From assembly GCA_041486365.1 (NCBI GenBank), contig JBGPLH010000180.1, positions 1 to 6,799 of the forward strand: a stretch of 6,799 bases of DNA, written 5' to 3'. The DNA is from JBGPLH01 sp041486365 [NCBI: Thermodesulfobacteriota bacterium]. Lineage in GTDB: Bacteria > JAUYMQ01. Of the stretch, positions 637 to 6,583 are shown one piece after another. A model generated the notes under the pieces. The model made no database searches and had not been told where the DNA came from. It saw nothing but the letters and a program-made list of their open reading frames with translations. Both the position numbers and the translations under genes were made by a program. The number at the start of each line of letters is the position of its first letter. The first letter of the stretch is position 1.

Positions 637-652
637 TTGACTTATTGACTTA
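637..652. repeat. Tandem 8-bp direct repeat (TTGACTTA x2)
   Basis: Two exact adjacent copies of TTGACTTA (637-644 and 645-652). The second copy contains the TAA stop codon (minus strand, 652-650) of the DUF6285-like gene. A second tiny tandem, GATTCG x2, sits at 616-627. In DNA this GC-rich the AT-rich repeat stands out. It looks like replication slippage in the convergent gap; gain or loss of a unit would leave the stop codon intact. Confidence 0.6.
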
Positions 653-1066
653 TTCCCTTCGGCCTTCCTTCGTTTCCGACCTCTCCAGCAACCCCGGATC
701 CGACACCGCGAGCTTGTCGCGCACGGTGCGCCGGGCGTGGGCGAGCACCTGCGTCCGCCAGTCCCCCTCGTCAGCGGCGCCTTCGCGGATCTTCTCGCAG
801 AGCGCCGCAGTGCGGGCGAGGATCGCCTTCCTCGTGTCCGCGAGGGACGGCGGAGCCGTGACGGGACCCAGCAGCGCGTCGAGCCCGTCCCACTCGCGCC
901 GCGCCTGCTCCTCCTCCGTCCGGATCTCGCGCCCCACTATCCGGATGGCGTTGGCGGCCACGCGGGCGAGGAACGACCGGCGCCCTTCCGTGCTCGGGAC
1001 GACCTCTTCCTCGAGAAATCGCTGCACGGCGTCCAGGAGCTCGAGCGCCGTCGGACGGTCCTGCAT
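650..1066 (-). CDS. DUF6285-like small protein, LvaB-type partner of the adjacent kinase
   Basis: A 138-residue, almost wholly helical, soluble protein with no signal peptide or membrane segment. Recognisable family segments are the N-terminal DRPTALELLDAV (3-14) followed by an acidic stretch FLEEEVVP (17-24), the helix FLARVAANAIRIVGRE (32-47), and near the C-terminus TVRDKLAVSDP (114-124). I recognise this as the DUF6285 type that habitually follows an APH-family phosphotransferase in acyl-CoA dehydrogenase clusters. By position and size it matches LvaB of the Pseudomonas levulinate operon, which is needed for activity of the LvaA kinase; that link is from memory. The start is the ATG at 1066, which shares its A with the TGA stop of the kinase gene (TGATG). 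A GAGG Shine-Dalgarno lies 7 nt upstream inside the kinase gene. The open frame continues upstream to 1354, but only as an antisense-like shadow. Translation is probably coupled to the kinase. Confidence 0.85.
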   Translation of the reverse strand: MQDRPTALELLDAVQRFLEEEVVPSTEGRRSFLARVAANAIRIVGREIRTEEEQARREWDGLDALLGPVTAPPSLADTRKAILARTAALCEKIREGAADEGDWRTQVLAHARRTVRDKLAVSDPGLLERSETKEGRRE

Positions 1067-2085
1067 CAGCCCACCTCGATCAGATCCAGGATCTCCCACT
1101 CGGTCTCGGCAGTGCGCCGCCCGATCGTGGCGTGTTCCACGTTGCCGCCGACGCCGTCCAGGAAGAAGCGCGCCTGCGCGATGGTGAATACACCCCAGCG
1201 CAGGTTGCCGTAGACCTCCCAGAAGCGCACGCGCGCGGGATCGACCGGAAAGCCGCTCGCGTGCGCGTAGGCCTCGAAGAGATCCTCCCGGGTCCCCACG
1301 CCGCCCGCCGAGAGATGGTCGGCGCCGAAGCGCCAGGAGCGGACGCAGGCCCAACCCAGGTCCTCCATGGGATCCCCCACGTGCGCGAGCTCCCAGTCGA
1401 GCACGGCGCGCAGGCCCTCCTCGCCGACGATCAGGTTGCCGGTCCGGAAATCGCCGTGGACCAGCGTGCGCCGCCCGGGATCGGACGGAGCATTTCGCAG
1501 GAGCCAGCGCAGCGCCAGCTCGTAGGCCGGATGGGGATCGGGCGTGATCGTCCGGTACAGATCCTCGAGCCGTTCCAACTCCCAGCCGGCAGGCGGGCGA
1601 TCAAGGGGCGGGACGGGGAGGAACGCCAGGGTGTCGCCGAGGGGGATCCGGTGGATCGCCGCGAGGGCCGCGCCGAGCTGGCCGGGGAGGGCGGCGCGGG
1701 CGTACTTGAAACGGTCGTCGCGCACGATCCGCCGGCCGATCGTTTCTCCCTCGACCCGCTCCGTCACGTAGAAGGGCTGTCCCGCCGCCGTCTCTCCCTC
1801 CCACCAGGGGCGGGGAACGGGAACGAAGGCCTCGAAGGCGGCGCGCAGGAGGGCGAACTCCTCGCGGGGGCCGAACTGCCGGTGGCCCGCGCCGCGGAAG
1901 CCGAGCCAGGCCAGGCGCAGCGTCTCGCGGCGTCCGCCCCGGTGCGTGAGCATCGCGTCCAGGGCCCAGGTCTCGCGCACGGCCCCGCCGGTCATGCGCC
2001 GCACGCCGTCGATCGCCACCTCGACGGCCTCCGTGCGCTCCTTCACGAAGGGGGCCATCAGCCGGATCAGCTCGGTCTCGGTCAT
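1066..2085 (-). CDS. APH-family phosphotransferase (LvaA / ACAD11-kinase-domain type)
   Basis: Small-molecule kinase of the aminoglycoside phosphotransferase fold, 339 residues, the usual length for stand-alone members next to acyl-CoA dehydrogenases. Visible elements are a glycine-rich MTGGAVRETW (31-40), a C-helix-like REEFALLRAA (74-83), the hinge region YVTERVEGETIG (106-117), a family-typical LAAIHRI (141-147), the catalytic-loop Brenner motif HGDFRTGNL (210-218; Asp212 as base, Asn217 metal ligand) and the DFG-equivalent AVLDWELAHVGDP (227-239; Asp230). Within this family, context points to hydroxyacyl-CoA phosphorylation as in LvaA and the ACAD10/11 kinase domains rather than antibiotic resistance. 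It starts 7 nt after the ACAD stop, with no clear Shine-Dalgarno, so translation is probably coupled. It overlaps the DUF6285 gene by one base. One oddity is that the beta3-like stretch ETLRLAWLGF (54-63) differs from the LVLRRDP-type sequence common in relatives. Confidence 0.93.
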   Translation of the reverse strand: MTETELIRLMAPFVKERTEAVEVAIDGVRRMTGGAVRETWALDAMLTHRGGRRETLRLAWLGFRGAGHRQFGPREEFALLRAAFEAFVPVPRPWWEGETAAGQPFYVTERVEGETIGRRIVRDDRFKYARAALPGQLGAALAAIHRIPLGDTLAFLPVPPLDRPPAGWELERLEDLYRTITPDPHPAYELALRWLLRNAPSDPGRRTLVHGDFRTGNLIVGEEGLRAVLDWELAHVGDPMEDLGWACVRSWRFGADHLSAGGVGTREDLFEAYAHASGFPVDPARVRFWEVYGNLRWGVFTIAQARFFLDGVGGNVEHATIGRRTAETEWEILDLIEVG

Positions 2086-2092
2086 GCCGCGA

Positions 2093-3289
2093 TCACCGGG
2101 CGAAGTCCCAGCCGGCCCCCGAAGCCATCTGCTTCAGGATGCGGCGGGACACGACCATGCGGTGCACCTCGTCCGGACCGTCGTAGATCCGGGCGTAACG
2201 CGCGTGGCGATACATCTTCTCCAGGGGCGTGTCGCCCGAGACGCCGCGGGCGCCGTGCACCTGGATCGCCCGGTCGATCACGTCGTGCAGCACCTTCGCG
2301 CCGAAGAACTTGATCAGGCTGATCTCGACGCGGGCCTCGTCGCCCTGGTCGATCTTCCGGGCGGCGTCGAGCGTGAGAAGGCGCGCGGCCTGGATCTCGG
2401 CGGCCGAGTCCGCGATCCAGTTCTGCACCGTCTGCTTCTCCGCCAGCGTGGCGCCGAAGGCGCGGCGCTTGAGCGCGTAGGCGCACATGAGATCGAAGGC
2501 CCTCTGCGCCTGCCCGAGCCAGCGCATGCAGTGGTAGATGCGCCCGGGGCCCAGGCGTTTCTGGGCGATCATGAAGGCGGCGCCGCGCTCGCCGAGGAGA
2601 TGGGACTTCGGGACGCGCACGTCGGTGAGCTTTATCTCGCAGTGCAGCCCCGTCGTGTCGCCCATCGTGGGGACGATCCGCACGACCTCGTACCCCGGCG
2701 AGTCAGTGGGCACGATGATCATGCTCGTCCGCGCGTGGGGCGCGGCCTCCGGCTCGGTAACGACCATCATCGTCGTGAAGGCCGCTGCGCTTGCCCCCGT
2801 GGTGAACCACTTGTGCGCGTTCACGATCCAGGTGTCCCCCTCCAGATGCGCGGTCGACCGGATGCCGGTCGGATCGGAGCCGGCCACCTCCGGCTCCGTC
2901 ATGCCGACGCTCGGCGTGATCTCGCCGCGCACCATGGGGAGCAGCCAGCGAGACTTCTGTTCGGGCGTCCCGAAGAGGTGGAGCATCCAGGAATCCTGGG
3001 TGACGTGCGTTCCGAGGGCGACCATCGCGTGATCGCACCGGCCGATCACCTCGTTCACGTAGACGTAGGGCATGAAGGGAAGGCCGCCGCCGCCGATCTC
3101 CGCCGGCAGGTTGAGCGCCCAGAGCCCTTCGGCCCTGGCGCGGGCCTGGAGCTCCCTCATGAGGACGCCCGCCTTGCCGTCGCCCTTGTCGAGGACCGGC
3201 TCCTGGGGGATGATGCCCTCGTCGATGAAGCGACGGACGCGGGACCGGAGCTCCGCGACCTCGGGGGGGAGGCCCTCGTGGATGCCCAT
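2093..3289 (-). CDS. Acyl-CoA dehydrogenase (LvaC / ACAD10-11 type)
   Basis: FAD flavoenzyme of the acyl-CoA dehydrogenase superfamily, 398 residues, full length, cytosolic. The N-terminal helical domain (about 1-125) is followed by the beta domain with MTEPEVAGSDP (130-140), IVNAHKWFTTGA (155-166) and a strand region ending LTDVRVPKSHLLGE (221-234). The C-terminal helical domain has KRLGPGRI (244-251), AYALKRRAFGATLAEKQ (270-286), IQVHGARGVSGDTPLEKMYR (342-361) and ARIYDGPDEVHR (366-377). The DGPDEVH ending is characteristic of the ACAD10/ACAD11/LvaC branch and puts Asp370 where classic enzymes such as MCAD carry the catalytic Glu. The linked kinase and DUF6285 genes support a role in eliminating phosphate from a phosphorylated hydroxyacyl-CoA to yield enoyl-CoA; plain dehydrogenation is the alternative. 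ATG 3289 has an upstream GAGGAG about 10 nt away. The frame stays open far upstream, antisense to the divergent gene, but that part is not protein-like. Confidence 0.96.
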   Translation of the reverse strand: MGIHEGLPPEVAELRSRVRRFIDEGIIPQEPVLDKGDGKAGVLMRELQARARAEGLWALNLPAEIGGGGLPFMPYVYVNEVIGRCDHAMVALGTHVTQDSWMLHLFGTPEQKSRWLLPMVRGEITPSVGMTEPEVAGSDPTGIRSTAHLEGDTWIVNAHKWFTTGASAAAFTTMMVVTEPEAAPHARTSMIIVPTDSPGYEVVRIVPTMGDTTGLHCEIKLTDVRVPKSHLLGERGAAFMIAQKRLGPGRIYHCMRWLGQAQRAFDLMCAYALKRRAFGATLAEKQTVQNWIADSAAEIQAARLLTLDAARKIDQGDEARVEISLIKFFGAKVLHDVIDRAIQVHGARGVSGDTPLEKMYRHARYARIYDGPDEVHRMVVSRRILKQMASGAGWDFAR

Positions 3290-3340: not shown

Positions 3341-3370
3341 ATCATGGACGAGGCGGGACGTGCAATTCAA
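3341..3370 (-). promoter_or_regulatory. Candidate promoter of the ACAD-kinase-DUF6285 operon
   Basis: On the minus strand, TTGAAT (3370-3365, 4 of 6 to TTGACA) is followed after 18 bp by CATGAT (3346-3341, 4 of 6 to TATAAT). The start point would fall near 3334, about 45 nt before the ACAD ATG. The -10 box overlaps the start codon of the divergent membrane-protein gene, and the start point falls in that gene's Shine-Dalgarno. This is consistent with the only 54-bp gap between the genes. The matches are moderate and sigma specificity in this organism is unknown. Confidence 0.3.
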
Positions 3371-5194
3371 GGGGGTGCCCGCCTCCGCATGCTCGTGGCC
3401 GCTGCGCTCGCGATCCTCGCGACGCTCGCGCTCCTGCGCGTGGGCGACGGCGAGTTCATCACCTATGACGACCAGGGGGACCTCCTCCAGAACCGTCACC
3501 TCCAGCAGGGTTTCACCCGCGAGAGCCTCGCCTGGTCCCTCACATCCCTGGAGTCGAGCAACTGGACCCCCCTCGCGTGGATGACCCACATCGCCGACTT
3601 CTCGCTGTACGGGAAGAATCCGCGGGGCCATCATCTCACGAACCTCGCGCTTCACGCCGTCAACGTGCTCCTTGTGTTCCTCGTGCTGGAGGCGATGACG
3701 GGCGCCCTCTGGAAGAGCGCCTTCGTCGCCGCGGTCTTCGCCGTTCACCCGCTGCAGGTCGAGCCGGTCGCGTGGCTGATCCAGCGATACACCCTGCTCA
3801 GCACGCTGTTCTTCCTCCTCACGCTCGGCGCCTGGCGGCGCTACGTCGCCGCGCCCGGTGTCCGCCGCTATCTCCCGATCCTTGCGTTCTTCGCCCTCGC
3901 GCTGCTCTCCAAGCCCATGGCCGTCACGACGCCCTTCGTGCTCCTCCTGCTGGACGCGTGGCCGCTGGGGCGCATGGCGGGCCCCGCGCCGCCTTCGTCG
4001 GCGCGCGGGAAGCGGGCGGGGAGCGTGGCGATCCCGAGCCGGGGGGTGCCCATCGGATCGCTCCGCGCTTCGCGCGGATTCGCTCTTGTTTTCGGGCGCC
4101 TCCTGGCGGAGAAGGTGCCGCTCTTCGCGCTCAGCGCCGCCGTGAGCGCGGTGACCCTCGTGGCCCAGCGCGGCGCGGAGACCTCGCTCGAGATCCTGCC
4201 GCCGGGCCTCCGCGTGGCGAACGCGATCCACGCCTACGTGGCCTATCTGGGAAAATTCCTCTGGCCGAGGGATCTCGCCGTCTTCTATCCGTACCCCGGC
4301 GCGGGCCTGACCGGGGCGAGGGTGCTCGGCGCCCTCGCGGTCCTCCTCGCCGTGACGGCGCTCGCATGGAGGGCGCGCGCGCGGTGCCCCGCCGCCATCG
4401 TCGGCTGGCTCTGGTACCTCGGGACGCTCGTGCCGGTGATCGGGATCGTGCAGGTGGGGCTGCAGGCGATGGCCGACCGCTACATGTACACGCCGATCAT
4501 AGGCCTGCTGATCATGACGGCCTGGGGCGGCGAGGCGCTGCTCGTCCCGCGGGCAAGCCGCGTGGCGCTGGCCCTGGTGGTCGTCGCGCTCGTCACGGCG
4601 CTGGCGGGCCGGAGCGCCCTCGAGGCCGGCATCTGGCGTGACAGCGTGACGCTCTTCGCGCACGCCGTGCGCGTCACGGGGCCCAATGCCGTCGCGCAGC
4701 GCAACCTCGGCGACGCGTTCATGCGGCGGGGGAAGATTGACGAGGCGATCGGGCGCTACCGCGAAGCCCTCCGGATCAACCCCTACTCCGCGGAGGCGCA
4801 CTACAACCTCGCCGAGCCGCTCCTCGCCCGGGAGCGCATCGCGGATGCCGAGGCGCAGTACCGGGAGGCCCTGCGCCTCGACCCGCGCATGTACCCGGCC
4901 CGCTACAACCTCGCCGTGCTGTTCATCCGCGCCGGGCAGCTCGACGAAGCGGAAGCGCAGCTGCGCGAGGCGATCCGGCTCGCGCCCGATCTCGCCCCCG
5001 CTCACTACACCCTCGGGAACCTCCTCGCACGACAGGGTCGATTCGCGGAAGCGCTTCCCGAGTTCCGGGCGGCGGTGCGCCTCCGGCCCGACGACCGGGC
5101 GGCGCGGTTGCGCCTTTCGCGCGTGCAGGCGATGCTGGCGTCGGGAGCGAAGCCCACGTCGCCGCCGGCGGGCGCCCCGGGGCCCGCGCCTTGA
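3344..5194 (+). CDS. TMTC-like polytopic membrane glycosyltransferase (GT-C fold) with C-terminal TPRs
   Basis: 616-residue inner-membrane protein. A first membrane helix (about 16-32) is followed by an exoplasmic loop with the GT-C acidic motif ITYDDQ (39-44). Typical family blocks follow: NWTPLAWMTHI (73-83), GHHLTNLALHAVN (95-107), the membrane run 106-136 ending in HPLQVEPVAW (135-144), and LLSKPMAVTTPFVLLLLDAWPLGR (187-210 overall). A Pro/Arg/Ser-rich linker (211-245) comes next, then KFLWPRDLAVFYPYP (304-318), WYLGTLVPVIGIVQVG (357-372), ADRYMYTPIIGL (377-388) and a last helix near 405-422. Four TPRs fill about 448-583, then a Pro/Ala tail. This is the architecture of TMTC O-mannosyltransferases and of many bacterial TPR/PMT-like proteins, so a lipid-linked-sugar-dependent protein O-glycosyltransferase is likely; donor and acceptor are unknown. 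GGAGG lies 9 nt before ATG 3344. Met16 (3389), preceded by a G-rich stretch, is an alternative start. Confidence 0.88.
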   Translation: MDEAGRAIQGGARLRMLVAAALAILATLALLRVGDGEFITYDDQGDLLQNRHLQQGFTRESLAWSLTSLESSNWTPLAWMTHIADFSLYGKNPRGHHLTNLALHAVNVLLVFLVLEAMTGALWKSAFVAAVFAVHPLQVEPVAWLIQRYTLLSTLFFLLTLGAWRRYVAAPGVRRYLPILAFFALALLSKPMAVTTPFVLLLLDAWPLGRMAGPAPPSSARGKRAGSVAIPSRGVPIGSLRASRGFALVFGRLLAEKVPLFALSAAVSAVTLVAQRGAETSLEILPPGLRVANAIHAYVAYLGKFLWPRDLAVFYPYPGAGLTGARVLGALAVLLAVTALAWRARARCPAAIVGWLWYLGTLVPVIGIVQVGLQAMADRYMYTPIIGLLIMTAWGGEALLVPRASRVALALVVVALVTALAGRSALEAGIWRDSVTLFAHAVRVTGPNAVAQRNLGDAFMRRGKIDEAIGRYREALRINPYSAEAHYNLAEPLLARERIADAEAQYREALRLDPRMYPARYNLAVLFIRAGQLDEAEAQLREAIRLAPDLAPAHYTLGNLLARQGRFAEALPEFRAAVRLRPDDRAARLRLSRVQAMLASGAKPTSPPAGAPGPAP

Positions 5195-5249: not shown

Positions 5250-6176
5250 ATGCGAATCGGGATCAGTTTCGATACCACGGGAGGGGAGCCCCTCGACGTG
5301 ATGCTCGAGGGGATCGCGCAGGCCGAGAAGGACGGCTTCGACGCCGCCTTCCTCCCGAACATCTTCGGCTACGACGCGTTGATGGTCTCGGCGCTCGCCG
5401 GGAGGATCACGAGCCGGATCGCCATCGGCACGGCCGTGGTCCCCACCTTCCCGCGCCATCCCTTCGCGCTCGCGCAGCAGGCGATGACGGCCCAAGCGGC
5501 CACGGGCGGGCGGTTGGTGCTGGGCCTCGGGCCGAGCCACCGCGTGGTGATCGAGACGATGCTGGGGCTCTCCTACGAGAAGCCCGCCCGCCACATGCGC
5601 GAGTACATCGAGGTCGTCCGCGCGCTCCGCGACAACGGCGGGGCCGCCTTCATGGGCGAGACCTACCGGGTGCAGGGGAGCCTCAAGGTCCCCGGCGGAG
5701 GCGGGTTCCCCATCCTGATCGGCGCCCTCGGGCCGCGCATGCTGAGGATCGCCGGTGAGCTTGCCGACGGAACGATCACATGGATGTGCGGCCCGAAGGT
5801 GCTCGGCGGGACGATCGTCCCCGGGATCCGCGCGCACGCGCAGGCGGCGGGCAGGTCTGAGCCGCGGATCGTCGCGGGGCTCCCAATCTGCGTGACCGAC
5901 GACCCGGCCGGCGCGCGGGAGAATGCGGCGAAGGCCTTCATGGTGTACGGAACGCTGCCGTCCTACCGCGCGATGCTCGACGCGGAAGGGGCGGCGGGGC
6001 CGGCGGACATCGTGATGGCGGGCAATGAAAAAGAGGTCCGGGCGTCCCTCGCGCGCCTGGCCTCGGCCGGCGTGACCGACCTGAACGCGGCGATCTTCCC
6101 GGCCGGGACCGACAAAGCGGCTTCGCGTCTCCGGACCTACGACTTCCTCGCGTCGCTCGGCGGGAAGATCAACTGA
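5250..6176 (+). CDS. LLM-class F420-type oxidoreductase (luciferase-like fold)
   Basis: 308-residue (beta/alpha)8 flavin/F420 oxidoreductase of the bacterial luciferase superfamily; cytosolic. Visible are the N-terminal strand MRIGISFD (1-8), the second-strand region EKDGFDAAFLPN (26-37), RIAIGTAVVPTFPRHPF (56-72), the LAQQAMTAQAATGGRLVLGLG block (74-94), the hallmark FPILIGALGPRMLRIAGE (153-170) with ADGTITW (172-178), and a C-terminal VRASLARLASAGVTDL (263-278). This pattern resembles the F420-dependent group typified by MSMEG_4879 (TIGR03564) more than FMN monooxygenases. F420 use is inferred, since no F420 biosynthesis gene is in view. ATG 5250 has AAGGAG 5 nt upstream. The frame extends upstream to 4686 only as a shadow of the TPR region. 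It lies 55 bp after the TMTC-like gene and 34 bp before the VOC gene, so it is most likely co-transcribed at least with the latter. Substrate unknown. Confidence 0.94.
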   Translation: MRIGISFDTTGGEPLDVMLEGIAQAEKDGFDAAFLPNIFGYDALMVSALAGRITSRIAIGTAVVPTFPRHPFALAQQAMTAQAATGGRLVLGLGPSHRVVIETMLGLSYEKPARHMREYIEVVRALRDNGGAAFMGETYRVQGSLKVPGGGGFPILIGALGPRMLRIAGELADGTITWMCGPKVLGGTIVPGIRAHAQAAGRSEPRIVAGLPICVTDDPAGARENAAKAFMVYGTLPSYRAMLDAEGAAGPADIVMAGNEKEVRASLARLASAGVTDLNAAIFPAGTDKAASRLRTYDFLASLGGKIN

Positions 6177-6570: not shown

Positions 6571-6583
6571 GCCCGCGCCCCGT

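Follow-up and report, generated by a model that had tools for sequence, protein, structure and literature searches.

A three-gene operon of a Thermodesulfobacteriota bacterium as a candidate kinase–DUF6285 phosphorylation and ACAD11-side elimination module for 4-hydroxyacyl-CoAs

A candidate phosphorylation–elimination operon

The DNA considered here (the window: a stretch of 6,799 nucleotides, contig JBGPLH010000180.1 of a Thermodesulfobacteriota bacterium, assembly GCA_041486365.1) carries three linked genes, for an acyl-CoA dehydrogenase (ACAD) family protein, a kinase of the aminoglycoside phosphotransferase (APH) fold and a small DUF6285 protein, which very probably form a module in which a kinase–DUF6285 pair phosphorylates a 4-hydroxyacyl-CoA and an eliminase from the ACAD11 side of its family then removes the phosphate. 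The chemistry and each of the protein families are already known, the route having been described from Pseudomonas, where it serves levulinate (further levulinate papers are PMC9399607, PMC9628823 and PMC11116726), and from mammals (ACAD10/11). Our comparison suggests that the route is widespread in bacteria and that it comes in two forms with different kinases. It also offers a proposed role for DUF6285, as a kinase subunit that is often fused to its partner, and a rule for annotating genes labelled ‘acyl-CoA dehydrogenase’ or ‘aminoglycoside phosphotransferase’, namely the signature RxxxxRxxHCMR plus DG(P/A)(D/S)EVH together with a DUF6285 partner. In the literature searched, from which most subscription journals were absent, we found neither a description of kinase–DUF6285 fusions or of the two-kinase split nor the name ‘DUF6285’, which is weak evidence of absence.

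The genes lie on the reverse strand in the order ACAD (2093–3289; 398 amino acids; PF00441, 150 bits), LvaA-type or DUF6285-linked kinase (1066–2085; 339 amino acids; PF01636, 105 bits) and LvaB-like DUF6285 protein (650–1066; 138 amino acids; PF19802, 78.4 bits against a gathering score of 28.1). An earlier note on this sequence had described a tightly coupled trio of these families at 650–3289, and both the coordinates with their Pfam scores and the letters themselves bear this out: 7 nt separate the ACAD stop from the kinase start, and one base is common to the kinase stop and the DUF6285 start (TGATG). The neighbourhood survey that the note had suggested, which we ran over the 80 nearest ACAD genome loci, recovered the same order on one strand in 16 of them (nine with separate genes, seven with kinase and DUF6285 fused). 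The Thermus thermophilus pTT27 cluster (L001) likewise has the three genes in this order and with this coupling, and together these findings show the arrangement to be more than chance. The pTT27 cluster differs from the window in that its ACAD groups with LvaC and that short-chain dehydrogenase/reductase (SDR), AMP-binding and histidine phosphatase genes flank it.

We propose that a complex of the LvaA-type kinase with the LvaB-like DUF6285 protein would use ATP to phosphorylate the 4-hydroxyl of a CoA thioester, and that an Asp of the ACAD11-side flavoprotein would then take the C2 proton while Arg245, His253 and Arg256 hold the phosphate during elimination, so that phosphate would leave without net oxidation to give a 2-enoyl-CoA. 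The substrates would be preformed 4-hydroxyacyl-CoAs, giving 4-hydroxy fatty acids a route into normal fat breakdown. The genes, their diagnostic residues, their clade placements and the linkage of kinase and DUF6285 genes are observed directly; from relatives we infer that the reaction takes place, that the substrates are of the 4-hydroxyacyl-CoA class and that DUF6285 and the kinase form a complex in the source organism.

The dehydrogenase lies on the ACAD11 side

The best solved relatives of the window ACAD are mouse and human ACAD11 (8v3u, 8v3v, 2wbi). By alignment, R245, R250, H253 and R256 within RLGPGRIYHCMR (2522–2557, reverse strand) correspond to ACAD11 R626, R631, H634 and R637, and D370 within YDGPDEVH (2162–2185, reverse strand) to D753, so that the window ACAD has the catalytic Asp that replaces the usual Glu; the His aligned with H597 is kept as well. 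The full set of R626, R631, H634, R637, D753 and H597 equivalents is found in the window and in 88 of 100 aligned rows. No ordinary ACAD carries it, these being the 11 rows that the tree sets apart among the 100, and it is incomplete in one further relative (L064). As described in the ACAD10/11 study (PMC12440821), D753 is the catalytic Asp and R626, H634 and R637 hold the 4-phosphate; non-conservative changes at these three positions abolished or strongly cut elimination, a change at H597 reduced it only partly, an Asp-to-Asn mutant did not complete the reaction, and plain acyl-CoAs gave no activity in the assay used. The diagnostic residues thus lend support to the phosphorylation–elimination chemistry put forward in the earlier note, and we propose that the window ACAD is a 4-phosphoacyl-CoA eliminase of the ACAD11/LvaC family.

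Within this family the trees place it clearly. In a careful tree of 37 rows, hand-picked from the 100 and in agreement with a quick tree of them all, the window ACAD falls on the same side as animal ACAD11 (98/97), within an 18-row group (100/100), and the LvaC group, from a Pseudomonas plasmid, Stutzerimonas, Azoarcus and Thermus, stands apart (100/95). A tree constrained to unite the window ACAD with LvaC had a log-likelihood lower by 65.9 and was rejected by the approximately unbiased (AU) test (p-AU 8.5e-7). The likeness to LvaC, LvaA and LvaB drawn earlier therefore stands for the components, but not for the type of ACAD. A second ACAD of Alkalihalobacterium (L010, 2568–3758) groups with animal ACAD11 (100/100), so that the animal enzyme has a relative in bacteria.

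The kinase belongs to the DUF6285-linked type

The window kinase has the catalytic loop HGDFRTGN (1435–1458, reverse strand), with the equivalents of ACAD11 D220 and N225, and the motif LDWELAH (1381–1401, reverse strand), whose Asp stands in the column of ACAD11 residue 240 and presumably binds metal as in the APH family. The D220, N225 and D240 columns, all kept in the window, are invariant in both of the types into which these kinases fall. The split between the types (99/99) comes from a careful tree of 74 rows, made from 79 by adding pieces of mouse ACAD11 and 3dxp and dropping seven rows (L078, a long ACAD11-type branch, and the near-copies L032, L033, L035, L042, L046 and L068). In the quick tree, the DUF6285-linked group comprises 63 of the 79 rows. 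For 61 of these, DUF6285 is part of the same protein, a direct neighbour or elsewhere in the locus; the other two (L027, L069) lie at locus ends, and DUF6285 is present in their genomes. The ACAD11-type group comprises 16 of the 79, 14 of them without DUF6285 in the locus and two of them second kinases (L008, L036).

The window kinase falls in the DUF6285-linked group, in a five-row set (99/92) with the metagenome-assembled genome (MAG) sequences L108, L110, L105 and L012, and holding it with the ACAD11 type gives a worse tree (p-AU 0.025). The earlier description of the operon as a split ACAD11 has to be given up: with an LvaA-type kinase and an ACAD11-side eliminase, it is a recurring mosaic and not a split ACAD11. 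Both proteins do lie within the LvaA, LvaC and ACAD11 clades, a position outside of which the earlier note had counted against its proposal. We propose that the kinase is a 4-hydroxyacyl-CoA kinase of the LvaA or DUF6285-linked type. Set beside animal ACAD10/ACAD11 and bacterial ACAD11-type kinase/ACAD pairs, the operon shares the side of the ACAD tree, the pocket residues and the catalytic Asp, but its kinase is of the other clade, is encoded by a separate gene, lacks the R176 motif and has a DUF6285 partner.

That motif concerns a stretch before the catalytic site in which ACAD11 R176 is, according to PMC12440821, a modelled CoA contact. The motif [YF]x1-3R[QRK] around R176 is present in 14 of 18 ACAD11-type but only 5 of 119 LvaA-type kinases; the same counts (14/18 vs 5/119) apply to a basic residue in the R176 column. 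In the window kinase, where the alignment of the stretch is uncertain, there is a W in the R176 column, a gap at 173 and no motif. Because the stretch is only a few residues shorter in the LvaA type (median 58, vs 60–66), the motif appears to have been replaced and not cut out. A further CoA contact given in PMC12440821, R86, could not be matched safely by its numbering and is not relied on; the D220 offset puts an Arg at 84, beside the alphaC Glu, and in the column by this Glu 15 of the 18 ACAD11-type kinases have Arg and 11 of the 119 LvaA-type kinases a basic residue.

An odd LRLAWLGF stretch in the N-lobe of the window kinase was considered as a sign of a frameshift or other damage, and this was rejected because the near relatives L108, L110, L012 and L105 vary in this strand and the window kinase retains the aligned Arg. 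The MAG behind L012 is titled Klebsiella pneumoniae, but both its kinase and its ACAD cluster with sequences from unrelated MAGs, and the title is probably wrong. In Planobispora takensis (L063, 7283–8281) the LvaA-type kinase match is spread over two open frames.

DUF6285 as a probable regular partner of the kinase

The lvaB gene of the reference lva operon encodes a PF19802 protein (85.3 bits). Among 67 DUF6285 matches, 30 are fused to a kinase, 25 lie directly downstream of one and 12 have no adjoining kinase, eight of the latter having a kinase elsewhere in the locus (L004, L032, L033, L048, L050, L056, L057, L063). As a test independent of the ACAD, three phylum samples were searched by the DUF6285 family alone, giving a match in 26 of 299, 10 of 301 and 69 of 282 genomes (seed genomes included). 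At the 62 new loci taken from these (64 minus two duplicates, the third sample being represented by its best 30 places), DUF6285 lies directly behind a kinase in 43 and is fused to one in 15, with neither arrangement in four; 57 of the 58 linked kinases score above 200 bits with the LvaA-type profile, the remaining one (L174) being incomplete.

A structure model fits such a partnership. An AlphaFold2 model of a natural kinase–DUF6285 fusion (L065), built on an alignment of 29 of the 30 fused rows (the cut row L098 left out), has a mean pLDDT of 92.9 and a pTM of 0.92, as would be expected if the two parts keep a fixed position relative to each other. The window DUF6285 protein modelled alone, on a 52-row alignment that excludes the plasmid sequences and several truncated or nearly identical rows, is predicted to be all helices (pLDDT 95.2, pTM 0.77). 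No Foldseek match in the PDB reached E <= 0.001 (best E = 1.8); since we are dealing with a small bundle of helices, we do not claim a new fold. Four of the 50 structural-match rows of the fusion model (5uxd, 5uxb, 6cav, 5iqf) reach into its DUF6285 part, which we take only as a hint to where DUF6285 docks on the kinase. According to PMC6692424, which cites Rand 2017, LvaB was pulled down with LvaA, growth on levulinate requires each of lvaA, lvaB and lvaC, and lvaB is essential in Pseudomonas putida; ACAD10 and ACAD11 work without an LvaB-like partner (PMC12440821).

Taken with the gene linkage, this suggests that DUF6285 is a regular kinase partner, and we propose that it is a subunit of the kinase. 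It may supply substrate or CoA recognition, and, as the R176 motif is absent from LvaA-type kinases, it may replace that motif. A bolder version, in which DUF6285 is an acyl-CoA-recognition lobe replacing the motif across the whole kinase branch, with its near-invariant R46 in contact with CoA or with the cleft of the kinase, so that one eliminase family would have been served by two kinase solutions, one dependent on DUF6285 and one not, is tentative, and on balance we doubt it. There is a real chance, if not the expected outcome, that DUF6285 is instead a scaffold or regulator, which ties the kinase to the ACAD or limits the kinase, and no part of a catalytic site or of CoA recognition, a role compatible with the phosphorylation–elimination module. 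Its all-helical make-up, in which we saw no catalytic motif, and the poor best Foldseek match would suit such a role, but kinase–DUF6285 pairs often occur without an ACAD in the ~3 kb read, which argues against a purely ACAD-tethering function, and the near-invariance of R46 (codon 929–931, reverse strand; 126 of 127 aligned homologues have Arg there), together with the link to kinases that lack the R176 motif, would rather suggest, if indirectly, a place at the active site.

In four loci the gene immediately behind DUF6285 encodes a histidine phosphatase (L001, 7267–7920; L002, 7337–8098; L006, 7355–8032; L040, 769–1404), three of them LvaC-type and one from Thermoleophilia; the enzyme possibly clears stalled phospho-acyl-CoA. 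A histidine phosphatase is also mentioned for Pseudomonas citronellolis in PMC6692424.

Co-occurrence of dehydrogenase and kinase across genomes

Fourteen of the 80 nearest ACAD loci have only an ACAD11-type kinase. Among these, L053 is a fragment from the end of a contig, its ACAD clustering with SAR86 loci that belong to the other type, and the kinase match of L010 is a fragment at the locus edge. We searched the genomes behind the 32 kinase-less loci and behind L010, L011 and L054, 35 loci that lead to 34 genomes (all but that of L029). Although the ACAD in these genomes stood without an adjoining LvaA-type kinase or DUF6285, 22 of the 34 carry DUF6285 elsewhere, at 25 places (~3 kb stretches) of which 16 are kinase-fused, six directly behind a kinase and three alone. 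Two of the genomes with a lone DUF6285 have an LvaA-type kinase elsewhere (G010, G026), and the third (G028) has a fused copy too. In each of the remaining 12 genomes the profile of the ACAD11-type kinase finds a match (best E 2e-133 to 6e-43; G030 partial), an assignment made at the level of the profile.

As a control, the first 20 genomes without a DUF6285 match were taken from each of the three phylum samples. At cut-offs of 1e-70 with motif for the ACAD and 1e-40 for the kinase, these 60 genomes comprise 14 with both ACAD and ACAD11-type kinase, two with the ACAD only, two with the kinase only and 42 with neither (Fisher p = 7.6e-10, for genomes that are not phylogenetically independent). 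In L224 the motif match looked doubtful, but its protein also contains a proper RLGPARLTHCMR, which backs it.

Several observations weigh against the module as proposed. No kinase or DUF6285 is seen in the visible stretch of 32 of the 80 nearest ACAD loci (40%); DUF6285 stands without an adjoining kinase in L058, L090, L104 and L114, the four new DUF6285 loci with neither arrangement are without a kinase in the ~3 kb covered, and in G010 and G026 the LvaA-type kinase is not beside DUF6285. Two of the 16 control genomes with the ACAD (G354, G362) have no kinase at the cut-off, a weaker kinase match adjoining the ACAD in G362. One of the ten genomes reached through ACAD11-type loci (L059, L060, L062, L073, L076–L081), G038 (locus L060), has an ACAD11-type kinase and also DUF6285, the kinase lying downstream of DUF6285 and not upstream; thus one type of kinase does not exclude the other. 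Among the 34 genomes, the search for ACAD11-type kinases covered the 12 without DUF6285, the AU test on the kinase side is a modest one, and the pathway genes of the source organism are visible within the window only.

Substrate and alternative explanations

A Pfam scan of four other window proteins (the Ham1 end, the membrane/TPR protein, the LLM oxidoreductase and the VOC protein) found no SDR (LvaD-like) or AMP-binding (LvaE-like) domain. The earlier note had remarked on the missing LvaD and LvaE equivalents, and they are indeed lacking among these neighbours, but this is no oddity. Three of the four LvaC-type loci have both an SDR and a ligase no more than 2.5 kb away on the same strand (an SDR is nearby in all four). 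This holds for only one of 61 other loci with enough flank, a count that leaves out the window for its short flank, and for none of the 21 among those 61 that carry kinase and DUF6285. As the absence of LvaD and LvaE is thus usual in this branch, disposal of 4-hydroxyacyl-CoAs in general, as for ACAD10/11, is favoured over levulinate, and the lack of an adjoining reductase and ligase suggests that preformed 4-hydroxyacyl-CoAs are taken and that this is not a levulinate operon.

It is unlikely that the pair acts on some other hydroxylated CoA thioester, whether branched, isoprenoid, with a steroid side chain or with the hydroxyl on another carbon. The related fusion L065 (not the window kinase itself) does have the 25-hydroxysteroid kinase (9ft5/9fsg, Z 23.7/22.7) and Rv3168 (Z 23.1) among its best structural matches, but the values are near or tied with that of 3dxp (22.6), which groups with the mouse ACAD11 kinase in the tree, and the pocket and catalytic residues of the window ACAD match those of enzymes for 4-phosphoacyl-CoA. 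The 25-hydroxysteroid kinase likewise precedes a phosphate elimination (PMC11061730); the Sterolibacterium kinase and 25-phosphosteroid lyase are like the proposed module in kinase fold and in the logic of phosphorylating and then eliminating, but act on a steroid tertiary alcohol, and the lyase is there called putative.

We consider it quite improbable that the trio is a levulinate (lva) operon proper, working on 4-hydroxyvaleryl-CoA with LvaD and LvaE equivalents encoded elsewhere in the genome. The reference operon, on Pseudomonas aeruginosa plasmid p12939-PER (L007; only lvaB is named, the others being assigned by order and similarity), has the same three components, an LvaA-type kinase, a DUF6285/LvaB protein and an ACAD-family eliminase, with 37%, 30% and 40% identity to their window counterparts. 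Its order, however, is A-B-C against C-A-B in the window, whose ACAD lies outside the LvaC clade, as the rejected AU constraint indicates; LvaD and LvaE, with the SDR and ligase so typical of LvaC-type loci and so rare elsewhere, are not seen among the scanned window proteins, and neither is an lvaR-like regulator.

That an ordinary acyl-CoA dehydrogenase merely happens to have as neighbours a phosphotransferase of the antibiotic type and a small protein, neither of them related to it in function, would fit the generic Pfam labels (Acyl-CoA_dh, APH) and the NCBIfam search, in which no model exceeded its cut-off for any of the three proteins, but is hardly credible and already disfavoured by the catalytic Asp and Arg/His/Arg set, not found in ordinary ACADs, by the recurrence of the three-gene linkage across loci and by the co-occurrence of ACAD and kinase across genomes.

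Neighbouring genes

Around the trio lie the end of a Ham1/RdgB gene, a tRNA-Pro, the membrane/TPR protein, the LLM oxidoreductase and the VOC protein; a partial gene at the right edge (reverse strand, stop near 6583) was outside the domain scan. The F420-type LLM-class oxidoreductase (5250–6176; TIGR03564), ~2 kb from the ACAD, was considered as a fourth partner and rejected, such a gene being near the ACAD in only eight of the 80 loci (L014, L016, L017, L025, L026, L040, L059, L062), too few to support such a claim. The gene at 3344–5194, divergent from the ACAD gene with 54 nt between the starts, encodes a protein with a long N-terminal part of many hydrophobic stretches followed by C-terminal TPR repeats.

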